Of a stretch of 44,328 nucleotides of DNA, positions 7,735 to 34,510 are shown one piece after another. The notes under the pieces were generated by a model that ran no database searches, was not told the DNA's origin, and saw nothing but the letters and a program-made list of their open reading frames with translations. The stretch spans positions 1 to 44,328 of the forward strand of contig NZ_JABURL010000063.1 of the NCBI RefSeq assembly GCF_014762705.1. Direction: 5' to 3'. Within the stretch, counting starts at the first letter, position 1. The number at the start of each line of letters is the position of its first letter. This DNA comes from Cyclobacterium sp. (GTDB lineage: Bacteria; Bacteroidota; Bacteroidia; Cytophagales; Cyclobacteriaceae). Made by a program: the position numbers and the translations under genes.

Positions 7735-9210
7735 ATGAAAAGTTTACCTGAGTACGAAGTGTGGTTCATAACTGGCAGCCAGCATTTGTATGGTGAAGAG
7801 ACCCTGAATACCGTAGCATTGCATGCCAAAGAAATTGCAGCAGCTTTGGATGCTTCAGAAAAAATAGCTGTCAAAATTGTTTATAAACCCATTGTTACCA
7901 CGGCAGTAGCTATTTACGAAGTACTTGCCCAAGCCAATGGGAAGGGTAATTGCATAGGGGTCATTACCTGGATGCACACTTTTTCGCCTGCCAAGATGTG
8001 GATCAGTGGATTAAAGGTTTTGCAAAAACCCCTTTTACATTTACATACCCAATATAACCGAAACTTACCTTGGGATGCCATCGACATGGATTTCATGAAC
8101 CTAAACCAAAGTGCTCATGGGGATCGGGAGTTTGGATTTATCTGTACCCGGATGGAAATTCCCAGAAAAGTAGTGGTAGGACATTGGAAAGAGCTACAGG
8201 TGCAGGTGGAAATCGATAATTGGTGTCGGGCGGCTTGTGGCTGGCACGATTGGCAAGGCGCTCAATTTGTGCGGTTTGGAGATAATATGCGGCAGGTGGC
8301 TGTCACTGAAGGAAATAAAGTGTCCGCAGAAATGCAATTTGGTTTCTCTGTCAATACCCATGGGGTAGGGGATTTGGTGGCCCAGATAGCGGAAATATCT
8401 TCTGCAGCTGTCGATCGTTTGATTGAAACCTACGAGCAGCAGTACCTGGTAGATGAACAAATGAACAAGCAGGGGAGCAGGAGGGAATCCCTGAGAGATG
8501 CTGCAAGAATAGAGTTGGGATTGAAGCAGTTTCTGGAACAGGGATCCTTCAAAGGTTTTACCAATACCTTTGAGGATTTGCATGGCATGAAGCAGTTGCC
8601 TGGCATTGCTGTTCAGCGGCTAATGGCTCAGGGATATGGGTACGCTGGAGAAGGAGATTGGAAGACCATGGCTCTGGTAAGGGCCATGAAGGTAATGGGT
8701 ACAGGATTGCCTGGAGGCAATGCCTTTATGGAGGATTATACTTATGATTTTGAGGAGCAGGGAGGACTTGTACTGGGGGCCCATATGCTGGAAGTGGATG
8801 AAAGCCTTGCAGCCGGGCCGATACGATGTGAAATACACCCATTGGATATCGGGGGTAAGGATGACCCGGTAAGACTGGTGTTTAACGCAGGGGGAGGAAA
8901 TGCACTTAATGCTTCCCTGATAGATTTAGGGACGAAATTCAGATTGGTGCTCAATGAGGTGGAAGCTATCATGCCCCCAAGGGATCTCCCTGAATTACCG
9001 GTGGCTCGCAGTATGTGGAGGCCTAAGCCAGACTTTAAAACCGCCGCTACCGCCTGGATTCTGGCAGGAGGTGCTCACCATACCTGTTTCAGTCAGAACT
9101 TGCCAACTGAAGTTTTGGAAGATTTTGCGGAAATGGCCCGTTTGGAATGTGTGTTGATTGATGGCGATACCCGGATAAGAGAATTCAAAGCCCTTCTCAA
9201 ACGGTTATAA
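7735..9210 (+). CDS. araA: L-arabinose isomerase
   Basis: Converts L-arabinose to L-ribulose in the cytosol, the first step of the pathway that ends with araD. The 491 aa are close to E. coli AraA (500). The family N-terminus [17 protein letters not shown] is present, as are the conserved [19 protein letters not shown]-like region, [16 protein letters not shown], and FMEDYTYDF with a metal-ligand Glu. [10 protein letters not shown] and the C-terminal [14 protein letters not shown] histidines complete the metal and active site. The gene runs divergently from araD and the cyclophilin gene, and no kinase or AraR-type regulator is in the window. Confidence 0.96.
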
Positions 9211-9282
9211 AGGGTAGAAACAGACCCTGCCTTACCCATGGTTTAATTAGTTACAAGAAAATGAATCCCATTTCTGGTGGCT

Positions 9283-10104
9283 TTAGTCATCTTTACAAGG
9301 GAGAATAATCAAAGGAGTAGCGCCCTCGTGTACCAAATCGTTGATAAAAAAATTTCTGAATAGTTTGTCGTTTAGTGTTCTGGAACCTTTTTGAAGGACA
9401 AGATAATCGTCCGGATACTCACTGTATCTGTTTTTGATGACTTTAAAAGCATCTGTACCCTCATAAATTTTCACCAAACATTGGTACTTATCATCTAATT
9501 TATCTTTAAGCGCATTCAAATATACCTCGCTTTCAGTTTTGTCATCTGTTTCTGAAAGGATGGTAAGTAGCTCTATTTCACCTATTGAGTTTCCAATTGT
9601 GTTAAGAAGATGGTTAAGTGCCGGTTCATTAAAAGGAAAATTAACGTGACTGGCCAAGGCAAGTCTCTTTGGAAGAGCCTGCTCAATGGATTTTGGTAAA
9701 GCAATAATAAGCCTGTTGAGGTGATTGATAATATTTGTAGCCGTACTGCCAATTAAAAATTTTTTAAGGAAACCAGTTCCTTTTAATCCCAACAAAAGTA
9801 TGTCATCTGAACTTGTTTCATTAGCTAAAAAATGGATGATCGAACTGTCAATTGCCAAAAATTCAGCTTTTTCACGTGGCAGGGCTAATTTTTTCAATTC
9901 TTCCGAAAACTTCTTGTCCGCTTCTTGTTTTTCGAAAGCTATCACTTGTTCCTTGCCTGGAGAATTGGCCAGAGTGGGCACCAAACCGGGGATTTGGTTA
10001 ATGAATTGGAGGGAAACACCGTACGAATTTTGCCACTCATAAGCCACCTTAATTATTGTTGGCGTATAGGGTGAAAAATCAATAAGTACAATTAATTTTT
10101 TCAT
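9283..10104 (-). CDS. Tandem universal stress protein (UspA family)
   Basis: Cytosolic UspA-superfamily protein of 273 aa, enough for two Usp folds. The first half begins KKLIVLIDFSPYTPTIIKVA and contains GLKGTGFLKKFLIGSTA, which fits the nucleotide-binding pattern G-x2-G-x9-G-[ST]. The second half starts near PKRLALASHVNFPFNEPA and ends PLIILP, but its loop (QKGSRTLNDKLFRNFF) does not keep the glycine pattern, so ATP binding is likely only in the first domain. These proteins typically respond to starvation or stress. It appears monocistronic. Confidence 0.85.
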   Translation of the reverse strand: MKKLIVLIDFSPYTPTIIKVAYEWQNSYGVSLQFINQIPGLVPTLANSPGKEQVIAFEKQEADKKFSEELKKLALPREKAEFLAIDSSIIHFLANETSSDDILLLGLKGTGFLKKFLIGSTATNIINHLNRLIIALPKSIEQALPKRLALASHVNFPFNEPALNHLLNTIGNSIGEIELLTILSETDDKTESEVYLNALKDKLDDKYQCLVKIYEGTDAFKVIKNRYSEYPDDYLVLQKGSRTLNDKLFRNFFINDLVHEGATPLIILPCKDD

Positions 10105-10204
10105 GGTATGAGGTGCATTTGAAAGTAAACTGTAAAAATTAAAGTTAAAGAATATCTTTCATAAAACTAGTTAACTGCATCAAATCAAAGTTTTTTGAAG
10201 GCTA

Positions 10205-10411
10205 CTATTGATCCTCATACCATTTTTCATCAAAGGTATGGGTAGACTCCAAGGCAGCTTTCAATACTTTCACCACCATCCATATCATTAATACCGGAGA
10301 AATGGAAAATAGCAACAATATCAGTGCGGTATTCAGGTTTACTGCTACAGCAACAACGTAAATCAATAGAAAGCCTGTTACCAGGCTAACTGGTACCAAT
10401 GGGTTGTCCAT
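10205..10411 (-). CDS. Small two-helix membrane protein, function unknown
   Basis: 68 aa from the ATG at 10411 (MDNPLVPVSLVT). I prefer this to a TTG start 27 bp upstream because a purine-rich AGGAAAAG lies just before it. Two predicted membrane helices (about residues 6-25 and 29-50) are followed by a charged cytosolic or periplasmic tail ending FDEKWYEDQ. I do not recognise the family. It lies 69 bp downstream of the HiPIP gene on the same strand and could be the last gene of that transcript. Confidence 0.6.
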   Translation of the reverse strand: MDNPLVPVSLVTGFLLIYVVAVAVNLNTALILLLFSISPVLMIWMVVKVLKAALESTHTFDEKWYEDQ

Positions 10412-10480
10412 AATTTGGTTCTTTTCCTGATAAAACAATCAGGAACAGGTATTTGTTCGATTAAAAAATTAGATTGTATA

Positions 10481-10804
10481 TCAGGCATTGTCCACCCTCG
10501 GAGCCCAATAGGTACAATATGCTCCGGCTTTTACAGGACCCTTAAAGAGTTGGCATCCACCACATTTTCTTTTTTCCGTAGGGGGTAGGTAGAGCTGACA
10601 ATTGTCACAACGATTGTCAGAAACCGGCGTTTCTTCTTCATATCCCAGGCTTTTTCTTTTTTCCAGTTCATCCTCGCTTAAGCCTGTCAGGTCTGCACAA
10701 TCAGTAACCTGTTCGAGTTGGTATTCTTTTTTTGGGCTGGCACAATAGGATAAAATCAGGGTTGACGATCCGAGTAAATACTTTACAAAATTCCTTCTTT
10801 CCAT
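10481..10804 (-). CDS. High-potential iron-sulfur protein (HiPIP), exported
   Basis: Small [4Fe-4S] electron carrier of 107 aa. The C-terminal half shows the HiPIP cysteine pattern: Cys66-x2-Cys69 (CDNC), Cys84 in GGCQLFKG and Cys97 in GAYCTYWAP, with spacings close to the canonical family. Cys81 is extra. The N-terminus MERRNFVKYLLGSSTLILSYC carries a twin-arginine-like motif and a possible lipobox ending at Cys21, so Tat export of the folded cluster protein is plausible. The gene begins 10 bp after the upstream dehydrogenase gene, implying co-transcription and a possible redox partnership. Confidence 0.85.
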   Translation of the reverse strand: MERRNFVKYLLGSSTLILSYCASPKKEYQLEQVTDCADLTGLSEDELEKRKSLGYEEETPVSDNRCDNCQLYLPPTEKRKCGGCQLFKGPVKAGAYCTYWAPRVDNA

Positions 10805-10814
10805 GGGTTGGTTT

Positions 10815-12926
10815 TTAAAGTGCGGTCATTAATTCCTGAAGGGGGAATTCACCATAATTTTCCCCTGCTTCCAGTTTTTTCAAAATAGCAGTTAAATTTT
10901 CAGAATGGTTATCCTTTGATAGCTCCAGACCTTTTTTCAGGTTATCCAAAGCTATTTGCTTCCAATGATCCATGTTTTCGCCTTCCAAAGAAGACAATAG
11001 TCCGATGAAATCCTTAATATTGGCTTCTTCCCCTTTTGCACCCAATATATGTGACACTTCTTTAAGGTAATCATTTTTCCAACCTTCAGAACTTTCAAAA
11101 AAATCATGCTGCTCTTTCAATTCTTCAAGGATCTGAAGTCCGGAGCCAGCATTGGAGCTAAGGATTGCTGTTCGAAACCATTTATTTGATCCCTTTTCCA
11201 TTAATACACCCGCCATTTTTTCAATGACTGAATTGTCCTCATAATTTCCCAGGCTTAAAACAGCCTGCATGGAGATCATTGGGTTTTCATGGTTTATTTT
11301 TTCCGATATATCTTCCCTTAAAGCTGGAAAGTCCTCTGCCAACACCAAAGCATTTTTAACAAGCCCCCAATGTTCGCTTTCCAATGCGGATGCTACCAAA
11401 TCTGAAGGTAAAGCATCCATGGAATGCAATAAATGAAGGGCCAGAACCTGGGCTTTTGGGTTTTCCTTTTTTGCCAATGCCAATAGAAAAGGCACCGGCT
11501 CCGCGCTGGGATTTTCCAGTATCAAGCGCTGAGCGGTAGTTCTGTTCCAGCCATTGTCATGGGCCAGTTGAGCAACAAGAGCTTCCGCGTCCATTTTTGA
11601 GAAATCAGGGGATTCCCTTTTTCCAACACCCGTGCCTTTTGGTACCAGGCGATAAATTCGCCCATGGTTTTCTCCATTCATGAAGTCCATTTCCTCTTTT
11701 AGATCATCCGGGATCGAAACCGGGGTTTCTATATGTTGCCGGTAAAAATCAACCAGGTACAGAAACCCATCAGGACCTACCGTAAAACCTACCGGCCTGA
11801 ACCAGGGATCGGTGGATGCCAGGAATTCCTTTGTGGTTTCTTCAGCATGTCGCCGGGCCAGTAGGGATGGTCCGTTTTTATCCAGCACCAACTGGTCTCT
11901 GTGTACCAGGTTTCCTGCTACATCTCCGGTAAACAGGTCTCCGTAAAATTCTTCCGGAAAGGCGCCTCCATTGTAAATCGTACCTCCGGAGGCTCCGGTG
12001 AAATAGTCCTCGGCATGTTCTACCCGGTCCAATTCCTGTTCCTGGTATTGCTTGTTCCTTCTTTGTGTCCTCTCTGCCCGCCAGTAGGGAGGCGGAGTCA
12101 TTTGAAACATTTCAAAATCATGGTCGGAAATGTTTTGATTTACAGATTTGCTGGATAGATGCCCGTGGCGCTCCAGGTATCTTCCAGGAATAACTGCCTG
12201 CTGCACATGCAAAGTGTTTTGGGTAAATACCTTATTGCCCCAGTCATCGAAGGTCTGCCCAAATTGTGCGGTGCCGCTTTCCTTTTCAAATTGGCCCTTG
12301 TCCAGTCGAAATCTGAAATCCATCCCCTGAAGGTTTATCGGCTTTTTTTCAGTTTTGTTTTGGAAGGTTACCTCACTTCTTTGCCCGTTATTGGCCGCAT
12401 AGATCCAATTATCCACACCCAGTCGCAAATTGGTAATCTGGGCTTCAGAATTATTTTCAAAAAAACCTGAAAAAATGATTTCTTTGCTGTCAGCAGCTCC
12501 ATCCTCATCCAGATCTTTCATGTAGTAGATATAGGGTGCAGCTGTTACCAGCAGGCCTCCCTTCCAGGGCATCAGACTGGTGGCATCTGCTATGCCTTCT
12601 GCAAAAACAATGGAGGAGTCTATCTGCCCATCTCCGTCTTCATCTACCAATTGTTTAATCACTCCCCTTCCCTTACCTTCTTCAGGCTTGTAGGGGTAGT
12701 CAGGCATTTCTACGGCGAAGGCCGTTCCGTGCTCATCAAATACCAAATCCACCGGATCCTTGATATGAGGCTCGGCGGCAAAGAGTTGTACTTCGAACGC
12801 TTCGTGAATATCAAAGGTAGCGATGGAGGCCTCCGGGCTCAGGGGGCCGGCATATTTGTCTTCTTTACAGGATTGTAGACCTGAAAGCAATATCATGGAG
12901 AGAATGAAGGATGCGGAAAGTTTCAT
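10815..12926 (-). CDS. Lipoprotein dehydrogenase-like beta-propeller protein (PVC-type family, no cytochrome domain)
   Basis: 703-aa secreted lipoprotein (signal ending LLSGLQSC, Cys20). Residues about 35-430 resemble the propeller of 'putative membrane-bound dehydrogenase' proteins of the Planctomycetes/Verrucomicrobia type, which are distantly related to soluble quinoprotein glucose dehydrogenases: FEVQLFAAEPHIKDPVDLVFDEHG, two calcium-binding D-x-D-x-D-G loops (DEDGDGQID; DLDEDGAAD) and FTVGPDGFLYLVDFYRQHIE. Residues about 440-700 are alpha-helical and HEAT-like. Such proteins usually end in a CxxCH cytochrome domain. This one has no cysteine except Cys20, so it carries no c-type haem. The HiPIP gene follows directly. 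Substrate is unknown. Confidence 0.75.
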   Translation of the reverse strand: MKLSASFILSMILLSGLQSCKEDKYAGPLSPEASIATFDIHEAFEVQLFAAEPHIKDPVDLVFDEHGTAFAVEMPDYPYKPEEGKGRGVIKQLVDEDGDGQIDSSIVFAEGIADATSLMPWKGGLLVTAAPYIYYMKDLDEDGAADSKEIIFSGFFENNSEAQITNLRLGVDNWIYAANNGQRSEVTFQNKTEKKPINLQGMDFRFRLDKGQFEKESGTAQFGQTFDDWGNKVFTQNTLHVQQAVIPGRYLERHGHLSSKSVNQNISDHDFEMFQMTPPPYWRAERTQRRNKQYQEQELDRVEHAEDYFTGASGGTIYNGGAFPEEFYGDLFTGDVAGNLVHRDQLVLDKNGPSLLARRHAEETTKEFLASTDPWFRPVGFTVGPDGFLYLVDFYRQHIETPVSIPDDLKEEMDFMNGENHGRIYRLVPKGTGVGKRESPDFSKMDAEALVAQLAHDNGWNRTTAQRLILENPSAEPVPFLLALAKKENPKAQVLALHLLHSMDALPSDLVASALESEHWGLVKNALVLAEDFPALREDISEKINHENPMISMQAVLSLGNYEDNSVIEKMAGVLMEKGSNKWFRTAILSSNAGSGLQILEELKEQHDFFESSEGWKNDYLKEVSHILGAKGEEANIKDFIGLLSSLEGENMDHWKQIALDNLKKGLELSKDNHSENLTAILKKLEAGENYGEFPLQELMTAL

Positions 12927-25421: not shown

Positions 25422-28400
25422 ATGATTAAAAAATTTACTCACGCAAAGGAAGGGAGTAATGGCATGACCAAACTCCTCCTTGGATTGATGATCCTGTTCG
25501 GGTCAACATTGATTAATCCGCTCTTTGCACAAGAGCGGTCAGTATCTGGAAAGGTAATTGATGAAAACAAGCAACCTATTCCGGGAGCAAGCATATTGGT
25601 GAAAGGAACGACCAAAGGAGCCGCTACTGATATTAACGGGGAGTTTTCACTTTCCTTGTCAGGAACCGAAAACCTTCTGGAGGTTTCTTTTATTGGTTAT
25701 GACAAAAAGGAAGTAAAAGTGGGCAATCAAAGTGAATTGACCATCTCTCTTTTACCCGATGAAACAGCCCTATCAGAGGTAGTTGTTACCGCCTTTGGAA
25801 TGGAACGGGAAAAGAAGGCGTTAGGCTACACTACACAGGCGGTAGAGGGTAGCCAAATCGCTGATGCCCGCCAGCCGAATATTGCCAACAACCTTTCCGG
25901 TAGAATTGCCGGCGTACAGATCAATAGCAATTCCATGCCCGGTAGTAGCTCTCATATTGTTATCAGGGGATCTTCTTCAGTAGCAGGAAACAACCAGCCA
26001 TTGGTGGTGCTGGATGGTGTTCCATTGGAACAGTCTTCAGACAGGAGATATGGCGGTGGATTGTCAGAGATCAATCCTGATAACATCAAGGAAATAAACG
26101 TTCTTAAGGGAGCTACTGCGGCAGCTCTTTACGGATCCAGAGCGGCAAACGGTGTGATCATGGTTACCACTAAAGATGGTTCCGGTGCTAAAGGCATTGG
26201 TGTGGAATACAACACCAACATGACTTTTGACAGACCATTGGTAGAACCAGGATTGCAAAATATTTATGGTGGAGGTATCGGGTACAGGACCTGGTATGTG
26301 GACGGTAGAAATGGTTTTGATGCCGATGGAATTCGCGGTACTGCCGGAGTGGATGAAAGCTGGGGTCAGCCCATGGATGGCAGCGAGGTGCCCCTTTGGT
26401 ACAGTGCTCCGGGAAGAGAGCCTTTATTGCCTCAACCTGATAATTTTCAGCAGTTTTGGGAAACCGGCAGGAGTATGACCCATAACATTGCGGTGGCAGG
26501 TTCCAATGAATCCGGTAATTTTAGGTTGTCTATGGGTAGACTTGACCAGTCTAGTATCATGTACAACAACGATTATTACAGAAACAATTTCAAGCTCAAT
26601 GCAGGATACAACTTTACCGATAAGTTAAGCTTCACTGTGAGTGCGGAATATGTGAAATCAGGTTCTGATAACAGAAGGTATACCGGAAGTTCTGATTTTA
26701 TTTGGGCGCACAGGCATACAGACTATGATAAGCTGAAAAACTGGGAGCAATATTATGACATCCAAAGGGAAACTTTCCGACCTGGTGACGATTATCCCTA
26801 CGCCAATTGGCAACATGAATATTTTACCAATCCTTATTTTCTTCAGGACCGCTATCCTAATGCCAACGAAAAAGATAGGCTGGTTGGAAATATAGCGGCT
26901 ACCTACAGTTTTACAGACGACCTTAAGGTAATGGTCAGGTCTGGTACTGACTTCTGGACCGATAGCAGAACTGATGTGACAAGTGTAGAAAGAACCAAAA
27001 ATTTTGTGCGAATTCTGGGAGCTTATACAGACACCCAAATGACCAGTCAGGAAACCAATAGTGATATTATCCTGACATATAACAAAACTTTGGATAACGG
27101 ATTTTCGCTCAACCTCCAGGGAGGGGCCATCAACAGGACCAATAATTACAAAATGACAGCTGTAAATGTCAGGGAATTGACCATTGATGGTTTGTACAAT
27201 CTGGGTAATTATGCCAGTCCCGTTGTACCATCCAGTGAGATCAGAAAGCAGGTAGTAAATAGTGTTTTTGGTTCTGCTCAATTTGGGTACATCAATTCCA
27301 TTTTCCTGGATGTAACAGGTAGAAATGACTGGTCCAGTACATTGCCCGTAAACGGCAATTCCTTCTTTTATCCTTCTGTGGCTTTGAGTGCCGTGCTTAC
27401 GGACTTATTTAACGTACAAAGCAATTTCCTTACCTTCGCTAAAGTGAGGGCCAGTTTGGCACAGGTAGGAAACGATGCAGATCCCTATTTATTGAATCAG
27501 GTTTTTGCTTCTCAGGGTCTTTGGGCAGGCACTACACCTGCATACGCAGCGGCTGATGAAATCGCCAATAGAAACCTGAAACCTGAAATTACCACAGGAC
27601 AGGAAATTGGCTTGGACATGAGGTTTTTGAATGGAAGGATTGGTTTGGACTTTACTTACTACCACCAGTCCACTACCAACCAGATTCTAGCCGTGGCCAT
27701 CTCAAGGGCATCCGGATATCAAAGCCAGATTCTGAATGCCGGAGAAATTACCAACCAGGGGATTGAATTGATGTTGACAGGGTCTTTGTTGCAAAATTCA
27801 GGAGGATTAAACTGGGATGTGGCATTAAACTTCGCCAGAAACAGGAATCTTGTAGTGGAGTTGGCCGAAGGTCTTGAAAACTACACCCTGGGTAGTCAGA
27901 ATAGTTTGACTTCAGAAGCCAGAATCGGACAGCCTTACGGAACACTCTATGGAAGAAGGTACCTGCGTTCTCCGGAAGGTGAGATTGTTTACAGCAATGG
28001 TTTGCCACAACTTGAAGCCGGTACTTTTCAGCTCGGCAACATTCAACCGGACTGGATTGGTGGCTTGTCAAACACTTTTTCCTACAGAGGATTTACCTTA
28101 GGTTCATTGATAGATGTGAGAATGGGCGGAGACTTGTTTGACGTAGGTACCGGCCTGGCCCGTAAAACAGGACAGTATGTAGAAACAGCCATTGGTAGAG
28201 AAGAGGGGGTTATCGGTCAAGGTGTGAAAAACGTTGGAACGGATGAAAGCCCGGTTTATGTAACCAATGACGTGATCGTAGGTGCCCAACCCTTTTGGAA
28301 CGCTCAAAATCCAAGGACCTATCACGAATCAGGGATATTTGATGGGTCATTTATCAAACTCAGAGAATTGTCTCTGGGCTATAGTTTGCCACAATCCCTG

Positions 28401-28586
28401 CTATCCAATACCTTTCTTCAAAGTGTCAGGATATCTGCAGTGGGAAGAAACCTGGCTATTTTATTCAGAAATCATCCCCATCTGGATCCCGAATTTGATG
28501 GAAAAGGTGGTAATGCCCAAGGTTTTGGATATGGCGAAATGCCTTCTACCAGAAACATAGGCTTTAACCTGAATGTATCCTTTTAA
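25422..28586 (+). CDS. SusC/RagA-family TonB-dependent outer-membrane transporter
   Basis: 1054-aa TonB-dependent transporter that would import a substrate held by the partner SusD-like lipoprotein. Order: signal peptide (to about residue 36, ending LFAQ; an internal Met15 is an alternative start), a carboxypeptidase-regulatory-like domain (about 38-113, SGKVIDENKQPIPGASILVKG), a plug (about 118-245, with the family hallmark LVVLDGVPLEQ and INPDNIKEINVLKGATAAALYGS split across it), and a 22-strand barrel ending NIGFNLNVSF with the terminal Phe. It is followed 30 bp later by the susD-like gene. No sigma/anti-sigma or hybrid two-component regulator sits beside it. Confidence 0.95.
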   Translation: MIKKFTHAKEGSNGMTKLLLGLMILFGSTLINPLFAQERSVSGKVIDENKQPIPGASILVKGTTKGAATDINGEFSLSLSGTENLLEVSFIGYDKKEVKVGNQSELTISLLPDETALSEVVVTAFGMEREKKALGYTTQAVEGSQIADARQPNIANNLSGRIAGVQINSNSMPGSSSHIVIRGSSSVAGNNQPLVVLDGVPLEQSSDRRYGGGLSEINPDNIKEINVLKGATAAALYGSRAANGVIMVTTKDGSGAKGIGVEYNTNMTFDRPLVEPGLQNIYGGGIGYRTWYVDGRNGFDADGIRGTAGVDESWGQPMDGSEVPLWYSAPGREPLLPQPDNFQQFWETGRSMTHNIAVAGSNESGNFRLSMGRLDQSSIMYNNDYYRNNFKLNAGYNFTDKLSFTVSAEYVKSGSDNRRYTGSSDFIWAHRHTDYDKLKNWEQYYDIQRETFRPGDDYPYANWQHEYFTNPYFLQDRYPNANEKDRLVGNIAATYSFTDDLKVMVRSGTDFWTDSRTDVTSVERTKNFVRILGAYTDTQMTSQETNSDIILTYNKTLDNGFSLNLQGGAINRTNNYKMTAVNVRELTIDGLYNLGNYASPVVPSSEIRKQVVNSVFGSAQFGYINSIFLDVTGRNDWSSTLPVNGNSFFYPSVALSAVLTDLFNVQSNFLTFAKVRASLAQVGNDADPYLLNQVFASQGLWAGTTPAYAAADEIANRNLKPEITTGQEIGLDMRFLNGRIGLDFTYYHQSTTNQILAVAISRASGYQSQILNAGEITNQGIELMLTGSLLQNSGGLNWDVALNFARNRNLVVELAEGLENYTLGSQNSLTSEARIGQPYGTLYGRRYLRSPEGEIVYSNGLPQLEAGTFQLGNIQPDWIGGLSNTFSYRGFTLGSLIDVRMGGDLFDVGTGLARKTGQYVETAIGREEGVIGQGVKNVGTDESPVYVTNDVIVGAQPFWNAQNPRTYHESGIFDGSFIKLRELSLGYSLPQSLLSNTFLQSVRISAVGRNLAILFRNHPHLDPEFDGKGGNAQGFGYGEMPSTRNIGFNLNVSF

Positions 28587-28616: not shown

Positions 28617-30077
28617 ATGAAAAGATTAAAATTTATACCATATACCCTAATGTTGGGTCTATTCCTTCTGGTCGGTTCCTGTACAGAGGAATTTGAAGAG
28701 ATCAATACAGATCCTAACAATCCTGTTACTATTTCTCCTGCCCTGTTATTGCCTAATGCCATTCAGGTGTCCGTAGACAGGTACTGGGGGCATAGTACGC
28801 GTTTTGAAAGATTGAATATCGATGCAGCCATGTGCTGGATCCAGCATTTGGCAAGAAACATATATATCAATGCTGAAGGAGATACCTATGAAATACCTAT
28901 TACTGTTTCCACCGGGACCTGGGATAACTTGTATAACAGTTCTTTGGTAAATCTGGAACAGGTAATTGAATTGGCCGGTGAAGGTGGAGCATTTCAAAAC
29001 CGCAATTACGAAGGTATAGCCCTGGTTATGAAAGCATTTACCTTTTCCTATTTGACAGACGTCTTTGGACCAATTCCTTATTCCAATGCCTTAAAAGGGG
29101 CGGCAGATGAACCTGTCAATTCTCCGGATTATGATTCCATGGAGGAAATTTATGCCGGTGTCTTGGAAGATTTGAAAATGGCCAATGAAAAGCTGACAAT
29201 AGGAGGTCCGGCGGTAAATGGAGATATCATGTTTGATGGGGACATCTTACGCTGGAAAAAGTTTGCCAATTCCCTGAGGATCAAATTGGCCAACCGTCAG
29301 GCTGCCAAAAAGCCCGCAGAATCCAGGGCCATCATGCAGGAAATTCTATCCTCACCTGAAACCTTTCCTATCTTCACAGGGAATGATGATTATGCACAGC
29401 TCAATCATGCCAACGTGATCGGAAGCAGAAATAAAATGTTTGATGTTTTTTCTACTCGTTCTGACTGGAATATCAGCACTACCCTAATAGATAAATTGCT
29501 GGAGTTGGATGATGATCGCATCAGTGTTTATGCCTTACCGCTGGCGGACGGTTCTTTTGCCGGATTGCCGAATGGATTAACAGATGCAGCGGCATCTTCC
29601 ATATCTGCCTCTACCATAGGACAGAAGTTTCTTGATCCCGAAGCACCAAGTATTTTGATGACGTATTCGGAATTGATGTTTATATTGGCTGAAGCTGCTC
29701 TTGAAGGAGATATAGCAGGGGATCACATGGATTACCTGGAAATGGCCATCAGCGGTTCTTTCGAACAGCATGGTTTGGAGATGCCGGCAGATTATATCAG
29801 CAGATTGGGAAATGTAGATAAGGAAGCCATCATGACACAAAAGTGGATCGCCTTGTTTGGTCAGGGTATAGAGGCCTGGACAGAATACAGGAGAACAGGT
29901 TTTCCTCAAATGCCAACACCTGATCCCAACGCTATTTTTGTAAACGATGGGGTACTGCCTACACGAATCGAGTATCCACCTTCTGAATATTCATTGAATA
30001 TGACCAATCTTGAAGAAGGAATACAAATGCTGGGTGGTGGAGATAATATGAGAACCAGGTTGTGGTGGGCGGAATAA
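28617..30077 (+). CDS. SusD/RagB-family nutrient-binding outer-membrane lipoprotein
   Basis: 486 aa, surface lipoprotein partner of the SusC-like transporter. Lipobox LLVGSC puts Cys22 as the lipidated residue. The start EEFEEINTDPNNPVTISPALLLPNAI and the helical TPR-like body (YEGIALVMKAFTFSYLTDVFGPIPYS, about 135-165; ILRWKKFANSLRIKLANR, about 210-230) fit the SusD-like_2 group. The C-terminal section has QKWIALFGQGIEAWTEYRRTGFP, a family hallmark. Ligand is not evident; no polysaccharide-degrading gene accompanies the pair. Confidence 0.93.
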   Translation: MKRLKFIPYTLMLGLFLLVGSCTEEFEEINTDPNNPVTISPALLLPNAIQVSVDRYWGHSTRFERLNIDAAMCWIQHLARNIYINAEGDTYEIPITVSTGTWDNLYNSSLVNLEQVIELAGEGGAFQNRNYEGIALVMKAFTFSYLTDVFGPIPYSNALKGAADEPVNSPDYDSMEEIYAGVLEDLKMANEKLTIGGPAVNGDIMFDGDILRWKKFANSLRIKLANRQAAKKPAESRAIMQEILSSPETFPIFTGNDDYAQLNHANVIGSRNKMFDVFSTRSDWNISTTLIDKLLELDDDRISVYALPLADGSFAGLPNGLTDAAASSISASTIGQKFLDPEAPSILMTYSELMFILAEAALEGDIAGDHMDYLEMAISGSFEQHGLEMPADYISRLGNVDKEAIMTQKWIALFGQGIEAWTEYRRTGFPQMPTPDPNAIFVNDGVLPTRIEYPPSEYSLNMTNLEEGIQMLGGGDNMRTRLWWAE

Positions 30078-30140: not shown

Positions 30141-30575
30141 ATGAAAAACTTATTAAATAAAATTGCCTTTCTGGGTTTGGTTGTGTCGGCATTTTCTTGC
30201 GTAGATGCAGTAGAACTGGCCACACCTAATGTCGCCTCTCCCGTTTTGGTAGTCCTCGAAGGAAATGAATTTGAGGCCAGCACAGGTGTTGCTGTTGCTG
30301 GTTCTTTTTATGAACTTGACAAAAGCGGTATTCTGGATCGGACCGTAGGCATTGATTCTATCCCGGTTTCCGGCTTGGAAATAACTGTTTTCATTAATCA
30401 GACGGAAGAAATAAGTACTTTAACTACCGATGCACAGGGAAAGATCATGTTTGAAAATCCATGGACTTCCCTTGGAGTGGCAACACCAAGCTCTGGCACC
30501 CAGATCAGATTGGAATTTGCAGGTACTTACAATGATATTGCCTTCAGACAATACCACAATGTGCGTGTAAAATAA
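30141..30575 (+). CDS. Small lipoprotein of the SusCD locus, function unknown
   Basis: 144 aa. The N-terminus ends VSAFSC (Cys20 lipobox). The mature part is rich in beta strands, with a repeated pattern (SGLEITVFINQTEEISTL; TQIRLEFAGTYND) that suggests one immunoglobulin-like sandwich. I do not recognise a family. It starts 63 bp after the susD-like gene and is probably a third surface subunit or ligand-binding accessory, as is common in SusCD loci. Confidence 0.7.
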   Translation: MKNLLNKIAFLGLVVSAFSCVDAVELATPNVASPVLVVLEGNEFEASTGVAVAGSFYELDKSGILDRTVGIDSIPVSGLEITVFINQTEEISTLTTDAQGKIMFENPWTSLGVATPSSGTQIRLEFAGTYNDIAFRQYHNVRVK

Positions 30576-30610
30576 ACCATCAAAAAGTAGGACAGTGTTC
30601 CTTAAGTGAG

Positions 30611-30705
30611 GGATGTTTTGTTTTGGTAAAAGTCTTATTCAAATATTGGTATTGTATATCTATATGGAAAGGACAGGTAAAACCCAGAACAAAACATCCT
30701 TTTTT
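30611..30705 (+). terminator. Long-armed hairpin with T run after the SusCD locus
   Basis: Perfect 12-bp inverted repeat GGATGTTTTGTT (30611-30622) and AACAAAACATCC (30688-30699). The stem extends inward to about 16 pairs with one G-T wobble (30611-30626 with 30684-30699) and is followed by T's (30700-30705). The 57-nt loop is unusually large for a terminator, so a structured or regulatory RNA is also possible. Confidence 0.55.
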
Positions 30706-30754
30706 GTATTTTAGTCTCATAAATTAATTTTAACCACTTAACACCAAATCAATC

Positions 30755-31906
30755 ATGACAAAATTAAACAGAAGAAACTGGCTTAAATCAAGTCTTACAA
30801 TGACCGCGGGCCTCATGTCAATGGGTTATGCCGGTGCGGCTTCCGGATCATCCGTTGCTTCTTTGGGACCTTCATACCTTCCAAAAAAGGACAGGTATGC
30901 CAGGTTAACCTCCAATGAAAATCCTTTCGGCCCATCCCCTTCGGCCAAGAAAGCACTTAAAGCTGCTATTGACGATTCTTTCCTTTATCCCAGAGAATAC
31001 AGGCAGACCCTGATTGAATTGATTGCAAAAGAAGAAGGAGTAAGTGAAGATCATATTTTGCTTGGAGCCGGATCCAGTGAGTTATTACATGCTGCAGCTA
31101 GGGTATATGGCGGAGCAAAGGGTAAGGTTTTATCCGCTGACCCCACCTATACATCCCTGATCAGGTCTGCCGAAATGATGGGCTCTGAATGGATCAAAAT
31201 TCCATTGGACAAAAATTTCGACCACGATTTGTCTACCATGGAGTATAAAGTAAAACCAGGTGTTTCTTTGGTTTATCTGGTGAATCCAAATAATCCAACG
31301 GGAAAAATAATGACTGGTGAAGAGATCATTGGCTTTTGTAATACGGTATCCTCTAAGGTCCCTGTATTTGTTGATGAAGCTTATTGGGATTATATGGAGA
31401 ATCCCAAGGGGTCTACCACTACTGCCTGTATCAAGGAAGGAGCAAATGTGATTGTCGCCAGGACATTTTCTAAAGTACACGCCTTTGCTGGTTTACGGGT
31501 AGGTTATTGCATTGCTCAGCCGGAAGTCATCAAAGAGTTGGCCAAAGAAGGCCCCAGAAATACCCTGAGCGGTCCTTCAATGAGTGCTGCTACAGCCAGT
31601 TTGGTGGATTATGATTTTATCAAATATTCTGTTAAAATGAATAATGAGGGTAAGAAATTCGTTTATGATGTTTTGGAAAAAACAGGTCATGATTATTTTC
31701 CCTCCCATACCAATTTCATTTTATTTCCCATAGCCATGGATTACGCAGATTTTAAAAAGAAGATGCTGGATAATGGGGTAGGAATAAAAAGCATGAATGT
31801 GGCCGGTCAAGATTATTGTCGGGTCAGTATGGGTAAAATGGAGGATTTGGAAATGTTTGCAGGTGCTTTTCAAAAAGTCATCGGTACCACTATAAACAAA
31901 TCCTAA
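30755..31906 (+). CDS. Tat-exported PLP-dependent aminotransferase (HisC-like, fold type I), copy 1
   Basis: 383 aa. The N-terminus TKLNRRNWLKSSLTMTAG is a twin-arginine signal followed by an A-rich region (cleavage near residue 30), so the folded, cofactor-loaded enzyme should be exported. The catalytic core resembles histidinol-phosphate/aromatic aminotransferases: SNENPFGPS, LGAGSSELL, NPNNPTG (Asn177-Gly183), Asp207 in VFVDEAYWDY, the PLP-binding Lys240 in ARTFSKVHAFAGLRVGY, and the C-terminal carboxylate Arg in CRVSMG. All key residues are intact. It runs in the same direction as the SusCD genes but is separated by a hairpin and 179 bp. A paralogue lies at 33344-34510. Substrate is unknown. 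Confidence 0.9.
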   Translation: MTKLNRRNWLKSSLTMTAGLMSMGYAGAASGSSVASLGPSYLPKKDRYARLTSNENPFGPSPSAKKALKAAIDDSFLYPREYRQTLIELIAKEEGVSEDHILLGAGSSELLHAAARVYGGAKGKVLSADPTYTSLIRSAEMMGSEWIKIPLDKNFDHDLSTMEYKVKPGVSLVYLVNPNNPTGKIMTGEEIIGFCNTVSSKVPVFVDEAYWDYMENPKGSTTTACIKEGANVIVARTFSKVHAFAGLRVGYCIAQPEVIKELAKEGPRNTLSGPSMSAATASLVDYDFIKYSVKMNNEGKKFVYDVLEKTGHDYFPSHTNFILFPIAMDYADFKKKMLDNGVGIKSMNVAGQDYCRVSMGKMEDLEMFAGAFQKVIGTTINKS

Positions 31907-31961
31907 ATCGGGCCGAAGTTTCTTGATTTAGCCTTATTGAACAATAATTGGTTCAGCTTAT

Positions 31962-31995
31962 AAAGCAGTCCTCTTTTTTAGGAGACTGCTTTTTT
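31962..31995 (+). terminator. Intrinsic terminator of aminotransferase copy 1
   Basis: AAAGCAGTC (31962-31970) pairs with GACTGCTTT (31984-31992); the inner bases are partly paired around a T-rich loop, and T's continue to 31995. Confidence 0.75.
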
Positions 31996-32057
31996 ACTGT
32001 ATATAGGGAAGAAACATATCTTGAGGGTTTGAAACTGTTAAAAATCAGGCTATTAAT

Positions 32058-32093
32058 AAAAAAAAAGCAGCTTTTCACCCGAAAAGCTGCTTT
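32058..32093 (-). terminator. Intrinsic terminator of the AEC permease gene (minus strand)
   Basis: A 13-bp stem (32064-32076 with 32081-32093), loop ACCC. On the minus strand it is followed by a run of about nine U's (A's at 32058-32066 on plus), so it ends the permease transcript. Confidence 0.85.
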
Positions 32094-32152
32094 CTGCGTT
32101 TACAGAGGTAAATCTGATCACATTGTAAAATTAACTGTTAGTGGTTTATTTT

Positions 32153-33271
32153 TTATGAAGAGTGTGTTTCTTTTTCCAATGCAGGCTCATATTCGATAAG
32201 GTTAAACCATTTCAACAAAGGTTTTATTATCCCTAAACCTATCAAAACAAACCCCACCAACAAAAGGGTGGTAGATGAAGCGAACAATTCGCCAAAGGAA
32301 AAAACCGTCAGCATGATTAGTGTGGAAAATGGAAGTGAACAAGCCAATATGTTTACTGCCAGTTCCATGTCAAATGTTTTATTCCAATTCTTATCATTGC
32401 CCTGTTCCAGAGCAGTAACGGATGCCATATGTGCAAATGGCCAGAAGCTTATGGCACTTTGTGGAAATACTACCAGAACCAAAATTGCTGCATAGGATAA
32501 TTGAGGAGCTAATAGTAATATCGTACCACTCAATAAGAAGGTTAGCCCGGATCGGATCATTAATAACCCGGCGATTTTTCTAATTTGTTTCCAATTAAAT
32601 ACTACAGCAATTCCTATGAAAATCAACACCAAAGGAGTCATCAGATTGCTTAGGGTACTGATGGCAGTAGACATAAATACCGGTAGATGTTCTAAATGAA
32701 TTCCCAGGCTGATCAATACCAAGGCAAGTATAATCACGATATTAATGGGCTCATTAACCAGGGACAGCAGCAGGGATTTAATTTTTTCCCCATTGCCCAC
32801 CTTGATGTCATTGTTGATTTTAAAGTACCAACTCATGGCAATCATATAGGCTATAACCAGAACAAATATTTTGTTTCCAATATCAGCCAATGCACCCCAG
32901 GCCAGCGCATCGTCTCCGAGATATTCTATCAGAAAGGGAAAGCAAGATAAACCCGGTGCCAATGAAGGAAACAACAACAAATAGGTTCTGTAGGAAGGAG
33001 AATCTTTTTCCAACCCAAATAAAGGCAATGAAAATTTTAATATAAAGTATAGTGTGAAATTGAAGGCAAGTGCCATAATAGGCAATGCCAGTAAATCCCA
33101 TTGCACTTCCGCCTTTAACAAAGCAACGAATATGATGGCAGGTAGCGCGACGGTAAGGATTATGGTTTTTAAACCTTTTTGCTGTGCAGGATCTTTTAGT
33201 TTTTTCCTTAATAAAAACCCGATAACCAATAGCAATAGCAAAGAAAGCGTCTTTTGGACAGCTAAGTTCAT
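32153..33271 (-). CDS. AEC-family (auxin efflux carrier-like) permease
   Basis: 372 aa, about ten membrane helices; the first helix LSLLLLLVIGFLLRKKL and the TVALPAIIFVALLKAE segment fit the AEC transporter family, whose bacterial members carry organic acids such as malate or 2-oxo acids (family knowledge). The C-terminal half has VVFPQSAISFWPFAHMASVT, consistent with the second five-helix repeat. The gene follows the second aminotransferase by 72 bp on the same strand and ends at its own terminator, so the two form an operon. A carrier for the amino donor, acceptor or product is a reasonable inference. Confidence 0.75.
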   Translation of the reverse strand: MNLAVQKTLSLLLLLVIGFLLRKKLKDPAQQKGLKTIILTVALPAIIFVALLKAEVQWDLLALPIMALAFNFTLYFILKFSLPLFGLEKDSPSYRTYLLLFPSLAPGLSCFPFLIEYLGDDALAWGALADIGNKIFVLVIAYMIAMSWYFKINNDIKVGNGEKIKSLLLSLVNEPINIVIILALVLISLGIHLEHLPVFMSTAISTLSNLMTPLVLIFIGIAVVFNWKQIRKIAGLLMIRSGLTFLLSGTILLLAPQLSYAAILVLVVFPQSAISFWPFAHMASVTALEQGNDKNWNKTFDMELAVNILACSLPFSTLIMLTVFSFGELFASSTTLLLVGFVLIGLGIIKPLLKWFNLIEYEPALEKETHSS

Positions 33272-33343
33272 AGGAATTGATTAGTTTGTTAGTGAGTAAA
33301 GTGGGTGGTTATTTGGGGTCTATTGCTAATCAATCAATAATTA

Positions 33344-34510
33344 TCAGGTGGTGGCTGTTTTTAGGGCATCCACAAACAATTTCATCTCGTCCATGGTACC
33401 CATACTGACCCTGCACCAAGGTGAGTCTGCGATAGAATAAACCCGTATGCCTACACCCTGGTCCATCATTTTTCCTGCGAATGCTTTACCTTCCTGCTGA
33501 ATAGGGAAAATCATAAAGCTGGTATGGGAAGTAATGGGGTCAAATCCCATAGACCTCACCTGATCTAAAGTGTATTCTTTTGATTCTTTGTTCCATTTTC
33601 TGCAGGATGCAATGAATTTTTCATCTTTTAAGCTTGCAATGGCACCTTTAAGAGAAGTGACGCAAAGTCCCATCGTACCTCTAACCATGCTGGTAATGGA
33701 CTTGATCCGCTCCTCAGTGGCAACCAGATAACCTACCCTAAGACCGGCCATACCGTGAATTTTAGAAAATGTTCTGGCTACCATTACATCATGACCTGCC
33801 TGAACCAATCCTACCATGGTATGATCTTCTGGCTTTTCCATAAATTCCAGGTAAGCCTCATCTACAAAAATGGGACGCTTTTTGGAGGCGCTTTTACAAA
33901 ATGTTTTCAATTCAGCAGGATCCGTGATGGCACCCATTGGGTTATTGGGATTACACACGTACAATAACTTGGTCTCAGAATCGATGGCACTTTCCATCGC
34001 ATCCAGGTCATGAGAATAATCGGCTTTTAATGGAACTGCCTTCCAATCTCCGCCCATTGCTTTGGCAGTATTGACCAAAGACATGTACGAAGGATCAGCG
34101 GAAATGACATTTCCTCCCTTTTGACACAATACTATGGCAGTTTTTTCCAACATATCGGTAGATCCTGGACCGAGCATTATGTTTTCGGGTTTAACGCCCT
34201 CTTTTTCTGCGAGCATGTCTATCAGGTATGCTGCATCTCCATGTCCATAACGGTTTCCCAGGCTAATGGATTCGGCGATGGCTTTCTGAACGCTGGAGGA
34301 GGGACCAAATGGATTTTCATTGGCCAGAAGCCTGGCCTTCATTTTTACATCTTTATACATGGGATTCATTTCCCACAACATACTTTCGCTGCTCCAGTTC
34401 TTTGTAGATATGGAATTGGTTTTTGCTGAGAGGTTTCCGGTTATCAACGGTATCGAACCTAAACCCAAAACGCTGGTTTTTAACCAGTCCCTTCTGTTAA
34501 AATTTTTCAT
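33344..34510 (-). CDS. Tat-exported PLP-dependent aminotransferase (HisC-like), copy 2
   Basis: 388 aa, a paralogue of the enzyme at 30755-31906. The N-terminus KNFNRRDWLKTSVLGLGSI is again a twin-arginine signal. Core motifs: ANENPFGPS, GPGSTDML, NPNNPMG (residues 187-193), Asp217 in IFVDEAYLEF, PLP Lys250 in ARTFSKIHGMAGLRVGY, Arg258, and the CRVSMG arginine near the C-terminus. Residues between the signal and core include an extra segment (about residues 36-58) absent from copy 1. It is first in an operon with the AEC permease. The two paralogues converge from opposite strands. Confidence 0.9.
   Translation of the reverse strand: MKNFNRRDWLKTSVLGLGSIPLITGNLSAKTNSISTKNWSSESMLWEMNPMYKDVKMKARLLANENPFGPSSSVQKAIAESISLGNRYGHGDAAYLIDMLAEKEGVKPENIMLGPGSTDMLEKTAIVLCQKGGNVISADPSYMSLVNTAKAMGGDWKAVPLKADYSHDLDAMESAIDSETKLLYVCNPNNPMGAITDPAELKTFCKSASKKRPIFVDEAYLEFMEKPEDHTMVGLVQAGHDVMVARTFSKIHGMAGLRVGYLVATEERIKSITSMVRGTMGLCVTSLKGAIASLKDEKFIASCRKWNKESKEYTLDQVRSMGFDPITSHTSFMIFPIQQEGKAFAGKMMDQGVGIRVYSIADSPWCRVSMGTMDEMKLFVDALKTATT

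Follow-up and report, generated by a model that had tools for sequence, protein, structure and literature searches.

The 44,328-base window analysed here, an entire contig of a 6.08-Mb Cyclobacterium genome, encodes two aminotransferases, AT1 and AT2, whose N-termini carry predicted signals for twin-arginine translocation (Tat). AT1 is preceded by an outer-membrane importer of the SusC-SusD type and a small conserved protein of 144 residues (LP144), and AT2 is followed by a permease. Judged from sequence, this dedicated gene set probably serves to import an amino compound that AT1 and AT2, once exported, would transaminate in the periplasm. The set seems to be new: the searches made among open-licence papers listed none that describes it. 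Of the named relatives represented by the loci found, Cyclobacterium plantarum is the closest; its AT1 is 99% identical to that of the window.

Two paralogous aminotransferases with predicted Tat signals

30755..31906, forward strand: AT1, Tat-start aminotransferase of fold type I, 383 residues (open reading frame (ORF), Pfam, NCBIfam, alignment, tree)
30755..30841, forward strand: predicted Tat-type signal of AT1, about residues 1-29, MTKLNRRNWLK and a mildly hydrophobic stretch (end estimated)
33344..34510, reverse strand: AT2, Tat-start aminotransferase of fold type I, permease-associated subfamily, 388 residues (ORF, Pfam, NCBIfam, alignment, tree)
34424..34510, reverse strand: predicted Tat-type signal of AT2, about residues 1-29, MKNFNRRDWLK and a hydrophobic stretch (end estimated)

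AT1 and AT2 share 40% identity across an alignment of 386 positions, and both exceed the cut-off of the Pfam aminotransferase class I/II model (PF00155, 154.9 and 167.5 bits; cut-off 19.7), in agreement with an initial annotation of the window that had called them paralogous aminotransferases. The two ORFs are intact and convergent, and the permease gene lies between them, on the strand of AT2 and 72 bases downstream of it; these coordinates bear out the earlier description of convergent copies, one paired with a permease. The active sites were likewise rightly described as intact. AT1 contains NENP (54-57), NPNNPTG (177-183), DEAY (207-210), K240 and R356, and AT2 contains NENP (64-67), NPNNPMG (187-193), DEAY (217-220), K250 and R367. 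The catalytic Lys, Asp, Asn and Arg of PF00155 thus correspond to K240/K250, D207/D217, N177/N187 and R356/R367. All 16 aligned members keep the main residues of the pyridoxal 5'-phosphate (PLP) site as well as the C-terminal Arg.

In both proteins an arginine pair (RR) occupies residues 6-7, and a hydrophobic Trp stands at residue 9, two positions after the pair. R6 and R7 are invariant in 16/16 aligned members, and the linker between signal and core differs in length and sequence. Among 135 rows compared, RR was present in 106 of the 111 family rows vs none of the 24 HisC-like control rows; together with the invariance in the alignment, these counts rule out a chance occurrence of the pair. 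Four of the five remaining family rows have Arg-Lys instead (L112, L137 twice and L138), and the fifth, the truncated L027, has no motif; a search of three frames upstream of L027 found no RR. One of the controls has an Arg-Lys pair upstream. The Arg-Lys members (NRKEWL, TRKNFL) appear to be a natural variant of the signal.

The 135 rows derive from the loci fetched, with duplicates in the core sequence discarded; these loci comprise the best of several searches plus 80 chosen stretches and form a part of all matches. The division into family and controls was made after the scores were known, at least 213 bits being taken as family, with the low-scoring RR row L163_1 added. The latter was grouped with the family in a tree of cores only; if it is counted as a control, the figures become 105/110 and 1/25. 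Sixteen of the family rows, including the window's two, are from Cyclobacterium. The search queries and the profile contained the signal stretch, and among the controls the HisC model was run on L004 only. Across the phylum, 129 of 395 genomes have a match at E <= 1e-60, a figure that is not a count of the family because most of the weaker matches begin near profile position 50, as HisC does.

A stricter definition of the signal was also applied: RR, a start codon and a 13-residue Kyte-Doolittle mean of at least 1.0, a threshold of our own. It was satisfied by 98/111 family rows and 0/24 controls. The 13 failures are the four Arg-Lys rows, L027, L022 and seven Cyclobacterium AT1 rows, including the AT1 of the window. 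The initial annotation had ascribed to both enzymes N-R-R-[ND]-W-L-K plus a hydrophobic stretch: the motif is present in both, and the stretch is evident in AT2 (best mean 1.5) and falls below the threshold in AT1 (0.97). Tat signals are frequently only mildly hydrophobic.

The genome encodes TatC (one match, 206.3 bits) and TatA (one match, 73.8 bits), both above cut-off. We infer Tat export of AT1 and AT2 from the conserved signal, the presence of these genes and the precedent of the pseudomonad enzymes PtaA and PvdN described below. The N-terminal extension, on which the earlier export claim had been staked, is kept among the homologues fetched, and this survey, the Tat genes and a separate true HisC together support the prediction for both enzymes.

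Placement within the HisC superfamily

Within the HisC superfamily, AT1 and AT2 are similar to the PtaA and PRK09105 models. For AT1 the best-scoring NCBIfam model is hisC (TIGR01141, 260 bits), followed by PRK09105 (NF006580, 240.3 bits); for AT2 the order is reversed (PRK09105, 269 bits; hisC, 239.5 bits). The curated cut-offs are 276.55 (equivalog) for hisC and 444 (subfamily) for PRK09105, and six other members scanned against PRK09105 scored 201.9-284.6 bits. The PRK09105 alignment starts at residue 2 and so covers the signal region, but the model name gives no function. PtaA (NF051461, equivalog cut-off 500) gave 192.2 bits for AT1 and 214.5 bits for AT2, and the CobD decarboxylase model (TIGR01140, cut-off 290.55) gave 153.4 and 139.5 bits. 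Since the scores lie under the curated cut-offs, no tested function can be transferred to either protein.

The nearest solved relatives, 3ly1 and 3ffh, are named HisC or putative HisC. However, the genome contains a true HisC elsewhere (378.6 bits vs the 276.55 cut-off), which lacks RR and is flanked by genes that we take to be hisD and hisB. An additional HisC for histidine synthesis is thereby ruled out as the identity of AT1 and AT2. Proteins that score near HisC may be exported enzymes with another role.

A quick tree of the catalytic core (78 rows; five Cyclobacterium loci left out; support by SH-like approximate likelihood ratio test only; some long branches) has a branch with support 99 that divides all 70 family rows from eight HisC-like rows. 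Three rows joined by single linkage (L086_1, L087_3 and L088_1), with a different N-terminus and no RR, had been dropped beforehand as other aminotransferases. AT2 falls in a 16-row clade (support 100); gene context was available for 12 of these rows, and 11 have the same permease nearby, the exception being L100_9. AT1 belongs to a clade of 30 rows (support 94), which have SusC-SusD-LP144, a flavoenzyme, a Hint-type protein or none of these as neighbours. The placement in two subfamilies indicates that the paralogues are old and do not result from a recent duplication. In another locus, L078, two AT1-type paralogues stand in tandem (8810-9955 and 10118-11281); a central stretch of about 100 residues is nearly identical between them and the remainder is divergent, which looks like gene conversion.

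A conserved importer gene set

25422..28586, forward strand: SusC-type TonB-linked outer-membrane transporter, 1054 residues (TIGR04056)
28617..30077, forward strand: SusD-like outer-membrane protein, 486 residues (PF12771)
30141..30575, forward strand: LP144, small conserved protein, putative lipoprotein, 144 residues (invariant Cys20)
30610..30705, forward strand: terminator-like hairpin between LP144 and AT1 (arms 30610-30620 and 30690-30700, then T's)
32153..33271, reverse strand: inner-membrane permease, remote relative of AEC/Mem_trans, 372 residues, directly downstream of AT2

The SusC-SusD-LP144 genes upstream of AT1, absent from the initial annotation, are a more telling neighbour than the permease. 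SusC scores 657.5 bits (cut-off 368.25) and SusD 305.7 bits (cut-off 27). The window SusD is 49-58% identical (470-592 bits) to the SusD proteins of 12 aminotransferase loci outside Cyclobacterium vs 36% (223 bits) for its best paralogue in the same genome, and the importer therefore looks dedicated. LP144 is taken as a lipoprotein because Cys20 is invariant across 10 aligned members; a comparison of LP144 with solved structures gave a best E of 0.38.

The gene order SusC-SusD-LP144-AT1 and permease-AT2 is common to 8/8 Cyclobacterium loci (the window and L009-L015). Among 194 genomes of the order, an aminotransferase of the Tat-start family (E <= 1e-70) was found in 53. LP144 (E <= 1e-10) occurs in 22 genomes, 21 of which have the aminotransferase (6.0 expected), and the two genes lie within 11 kb of each other in 17/22. 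The permease clade (E <= 1e-60) occurs in 15 genomes, all with the aminotransferase (4.1 expected) and all with the permease at most 366 bases from a Tat-start aminotransferase. The co-occurrence and the SusD orthology rule out SusC-SusD as a random neighbour of AT1. For L080 and L115 the gene calling retained a longer ORF in a different frame and so lost the aminotransferase that the search places in each.

Outside the phylum, three of ten matches in a plasmid collection were opened. On a Novosphingobium megaplasmid an RR-start homologue shares one base with the end of a TonB-dependent receptor gene, and a second receptor gene follows it. The Proteus homologue also has an RR start (MNRRSFL) and adjoins a BCCT transporter, and the Priestia match is a plain HisC-type protein with no RR.

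A pattern scan for promoters and terminators gave no excess over shuffles (20 found vs 19.9, and 7 vs 6.6), and a PHROGs comparison returned one family of unknown function.

Permease and L-amino acid oxidase as alternative partners

In related loci the aminotransferase is accompanied by a flavoenzyme. This protein (E <= 1e-120) was found in 20 genomes, of which 19 have the aminotransferase (5.5 expected), the genes being at most 11 kb apart in 16/20. It is closest to the L-amino acid oxidase of Rhodococcus opacus (2jae; 473 bits with the profile as query and 388 with a single member), which indicates amino-acid/oxo-acid chemistry, and it has an RR start in 11/11 loci. A published report describes an N-terminal Tat signal in the L-amino acid oxidases of both R. 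opacus and Gluconacetobacter diazotrophicus (PMC5053998). No member of the oxidase clade was found at E <= 1e-120 in the genome of the window; weaker matches there are a distant RR-start flavoenzyme and a partial match of 42 residues. The former (MKRRDFLQ, 452 residues) is encoded at L118:1480-2838, forward strand, on a different contig from the window, C62.

The lone exception for both LP144 and the flavoenzyme is G177, where the two are present and no aminotransferase was found at the cut-off. The flavoenzyme of this genome is a fragment (C1:4798658-4799536, model positions 229-522 of 524), with LP144 at C1:4804601-4805014, and the set may be decaying.

Among the 22 LP144 genomes, the permease without the oxidase is present in nine, the oxidase without the permease in 11, both in one (G180) and neither in one (G110, 72% complete), and the two partners are thus nearly mutually exclusive (Fisher p 1.9e-4, related genomes treated as independent). 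Among the 53 aminotransferase genomes the corresponding numbers are 14, 18, 1 and 20 (p 0.0045, with relatedness likewise ignored). Family f11 contains both types, so that the split does not simply set lineage against lineage.

A tentative and rather doubtful extension is that the gene set solves the recharging of the cofactor of a periplasmic transaminase in two interchangeable ways. AT1 would require a steady periplasmic supply of 2-oxo acid so that PLP is restored from the pyridoxamine form. In one set of genomes, a Tat-exported L-amino acid oxidase would produce the 2-oxo acid on site; in the other, AT2, likewise Tat-exported, and its own permease would pass amino acids and oxo acids to and from the cytoplasm.

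Comparison with known systems

The initial annotation had stressed that PLP enzymes of fold type I normally act in the cytosol. The exception made for AT1 and AT2 is supported, but the enzyme kind itself is not new, as Tat-exported PLP enzymes are already known. A review describes PtaA of Pseudomonas fluorescens as a normal PLP transaminase, exported by Tat in folded form with PLP, whose target is the glutamate end of pyoverdine, a siderophore whose uptake is TonB-dependent; PvdN is described as a second Tat-exported PLP enzyme, which catalyzes a non-transaminase reaction in pyoverdine maturation (PMC6206403; a second review is PMC9569983). According to the first review, PtaA is also found in species that lack pyoverdine, may have a part in other pathways of the periplasm, and depends on some regeneration of PLP there; the manner of this regeneration and the role of PtaA without pyoverdine are left open (PMC6206403).

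The window shares with PtaA a PLP transaminase with (here predicted) Tat export and TonB-linked uptake alongside. It differs in belonging to another phylum, in having two subfamilies together with SusC-SusD and a permease, and in scores far below the PtaA cut-off, for which reason AT1 and AT2 are described as probably working like PtaA and not as PtaA. They differ from HisC in their scores and in lying on the opposite side of the tree from the RR-less HisC-like rows. With PvdN they would share Tat export with bound PLP, but the reaction is different. The L-amino acid oxidases correspond to the partner gene of related loci and have no counterpart in the window.

PvdN belongs to the class V family. 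Near three of the loci studied are genes for class V-type aminotransferases whose starts look Tat-like ([RK]R[NQ]FL): L077:1701-2984 (forward), L105:6253-7521 (forward) and L106:14607-15899 (reverse). The only one of the three that was scanned, that of L105, reached 143 bits against the PvdN model, whose cut-off is 650.

Proposed function and competing explanations

In the mechanism that we consider probable, SusC-SusD-LP144 would carry an amino-bearing solute inward across the outer membrane. AT1 and AT2 would each fold and bind PLP in the cytoplasm and would then be exported by Tat to the periplasm, where AT1 would swap the amino group of the solute with a 2-oxo acid. AT2 and the permease would either complete the amino exchange or move the amino- or oxo-acid partner across the inner membrane. 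The substrate may be an L-amino acid, or else a conjugate in which one end is a free amino acid.

Several observations weigh against this interpretation. The hydrophobic stretch of AT1 falls narrowly short of our threshold, and the hisC, PRK09105 and PtaA scores of both enzymes are under the curated cut-offs. The permease matches the AEC models weakly (PF03547, 17.9 bits, cut-off 25.7; TIGR00946, 42.6 bits, cut-off 246.05). No SusC, SusD, LP144, permease, oxidase or Hint-type protein was found in the stretch examined for 15 of 41 loci outside Cyclobacterium. SusC-SusD-LP144 also adjoins AT2-type genes (L094, L098 and L099), and so is common to both subfamilies and not specific to that of AT1, and the Fisher p-values overstate the association, since related genomes were treated as independent. 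Finally, the 30576-30754 interval between LP144 and AT1 contains a hairpin with 11-bp arms, a 69-base loop and T's after it (z -3.86), which is terminator-like and may be a terminator or a regulatory element. It is kept in 8/8 Cyclobacterium sequences with 88/88 cells paired, yet 129 of 500 shuffles reach the same count, the pairing not exceeding the shuffles because the arms hardly vary. Co-transcription of LP144 and AT1 is therefore doubtful, as is a single simple operon SusC-SusD-LP144-AT1.

The competing explanation that survives best, although it is unlikely, is a tailoring reaction like that of PtaA, in which a self-made metabolite or siderophore would be modified on its way out and retaken by SusC-SusD, in a biosynthetic or recycling rather than a catabolic role. 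PtaA and PvdN in pseudomonads provide the precedent, with TonB-dependent retaking of the siderophore described in the review cited (PMC6206403). The class V-type aminotransferases of L077, L105 and L106, of which that of L105 resembles PvdN, are consistent with it. However, no nonribosomal peptide synthetase or the like was seen among ten neighbour proteins scanned, a weak argument as no search aimed at such genes was made, and the L-amino acid oxidase and permease partners would fit degradation or assimilation better.

Less probable still are exported PLP enzymes with another chemistry, such as a decarboxylase, a lyase or a racemase. The CobD decarboxylase model also matches both proteins, below its cut-off, and PvdN, as reported in the cited review, is a PLP enzyme with a non-transaminase reaction; however, PtaA, whose model matches better, is described there as a normal transaminase (PMC6206403). 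The conservation of the PLP-site residues and the C-terminal Arg in 16/16 members also argues for transamination, though these residues are compatible with other PLP chemistry.

Very unlikely are cytosolic HisC-type paralogues whose RR start is either unused or an anchor that keeps them at the membrane's inner face: the hisC scores and the mild AT1 stretch point that way, but they are outweighed by the RR counts in family and HisC-like rows, the RR starts of the Proteus and Novosphingobium homologues and of the partner oxidase, and the true HisC of the genome.

If periplasmic transamination of an imported compound is correct, the gene set supplies concrete partners (an importer, and a permease or an L-amino acid oxidase) that make both of the questions raised for PtaA testable. 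SusC-SusD systems are best known for glycans; the present loci suggest that some of them may feed periplasmic amino-group chemistry.

A Hint-type protein near AT1-type genes

Several AT1-type genes have in their vicinity a gene for a protein of about 280-360 residues that starts like a signal peptide and ends in a Hint module of the hedgehog/intein type (L016:9603-10649, reverse; L077:6075-7052, reverse; L086:10487-11476, forward; and eight more loci). A search of the genome of the window, made without a positive control, did not find it. The one member scanned scored 33.4 bits with PF01079 (cut-off 29.7). The junction Cys-Phe and a T-x-x-H block are kept in 8/8 aligned proteins, and 7/8 lack the terminal Asn. 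From the meaning that we assume for these motifs, the protein is possibly self-cleaving and may attach something to its own N-terminal half.

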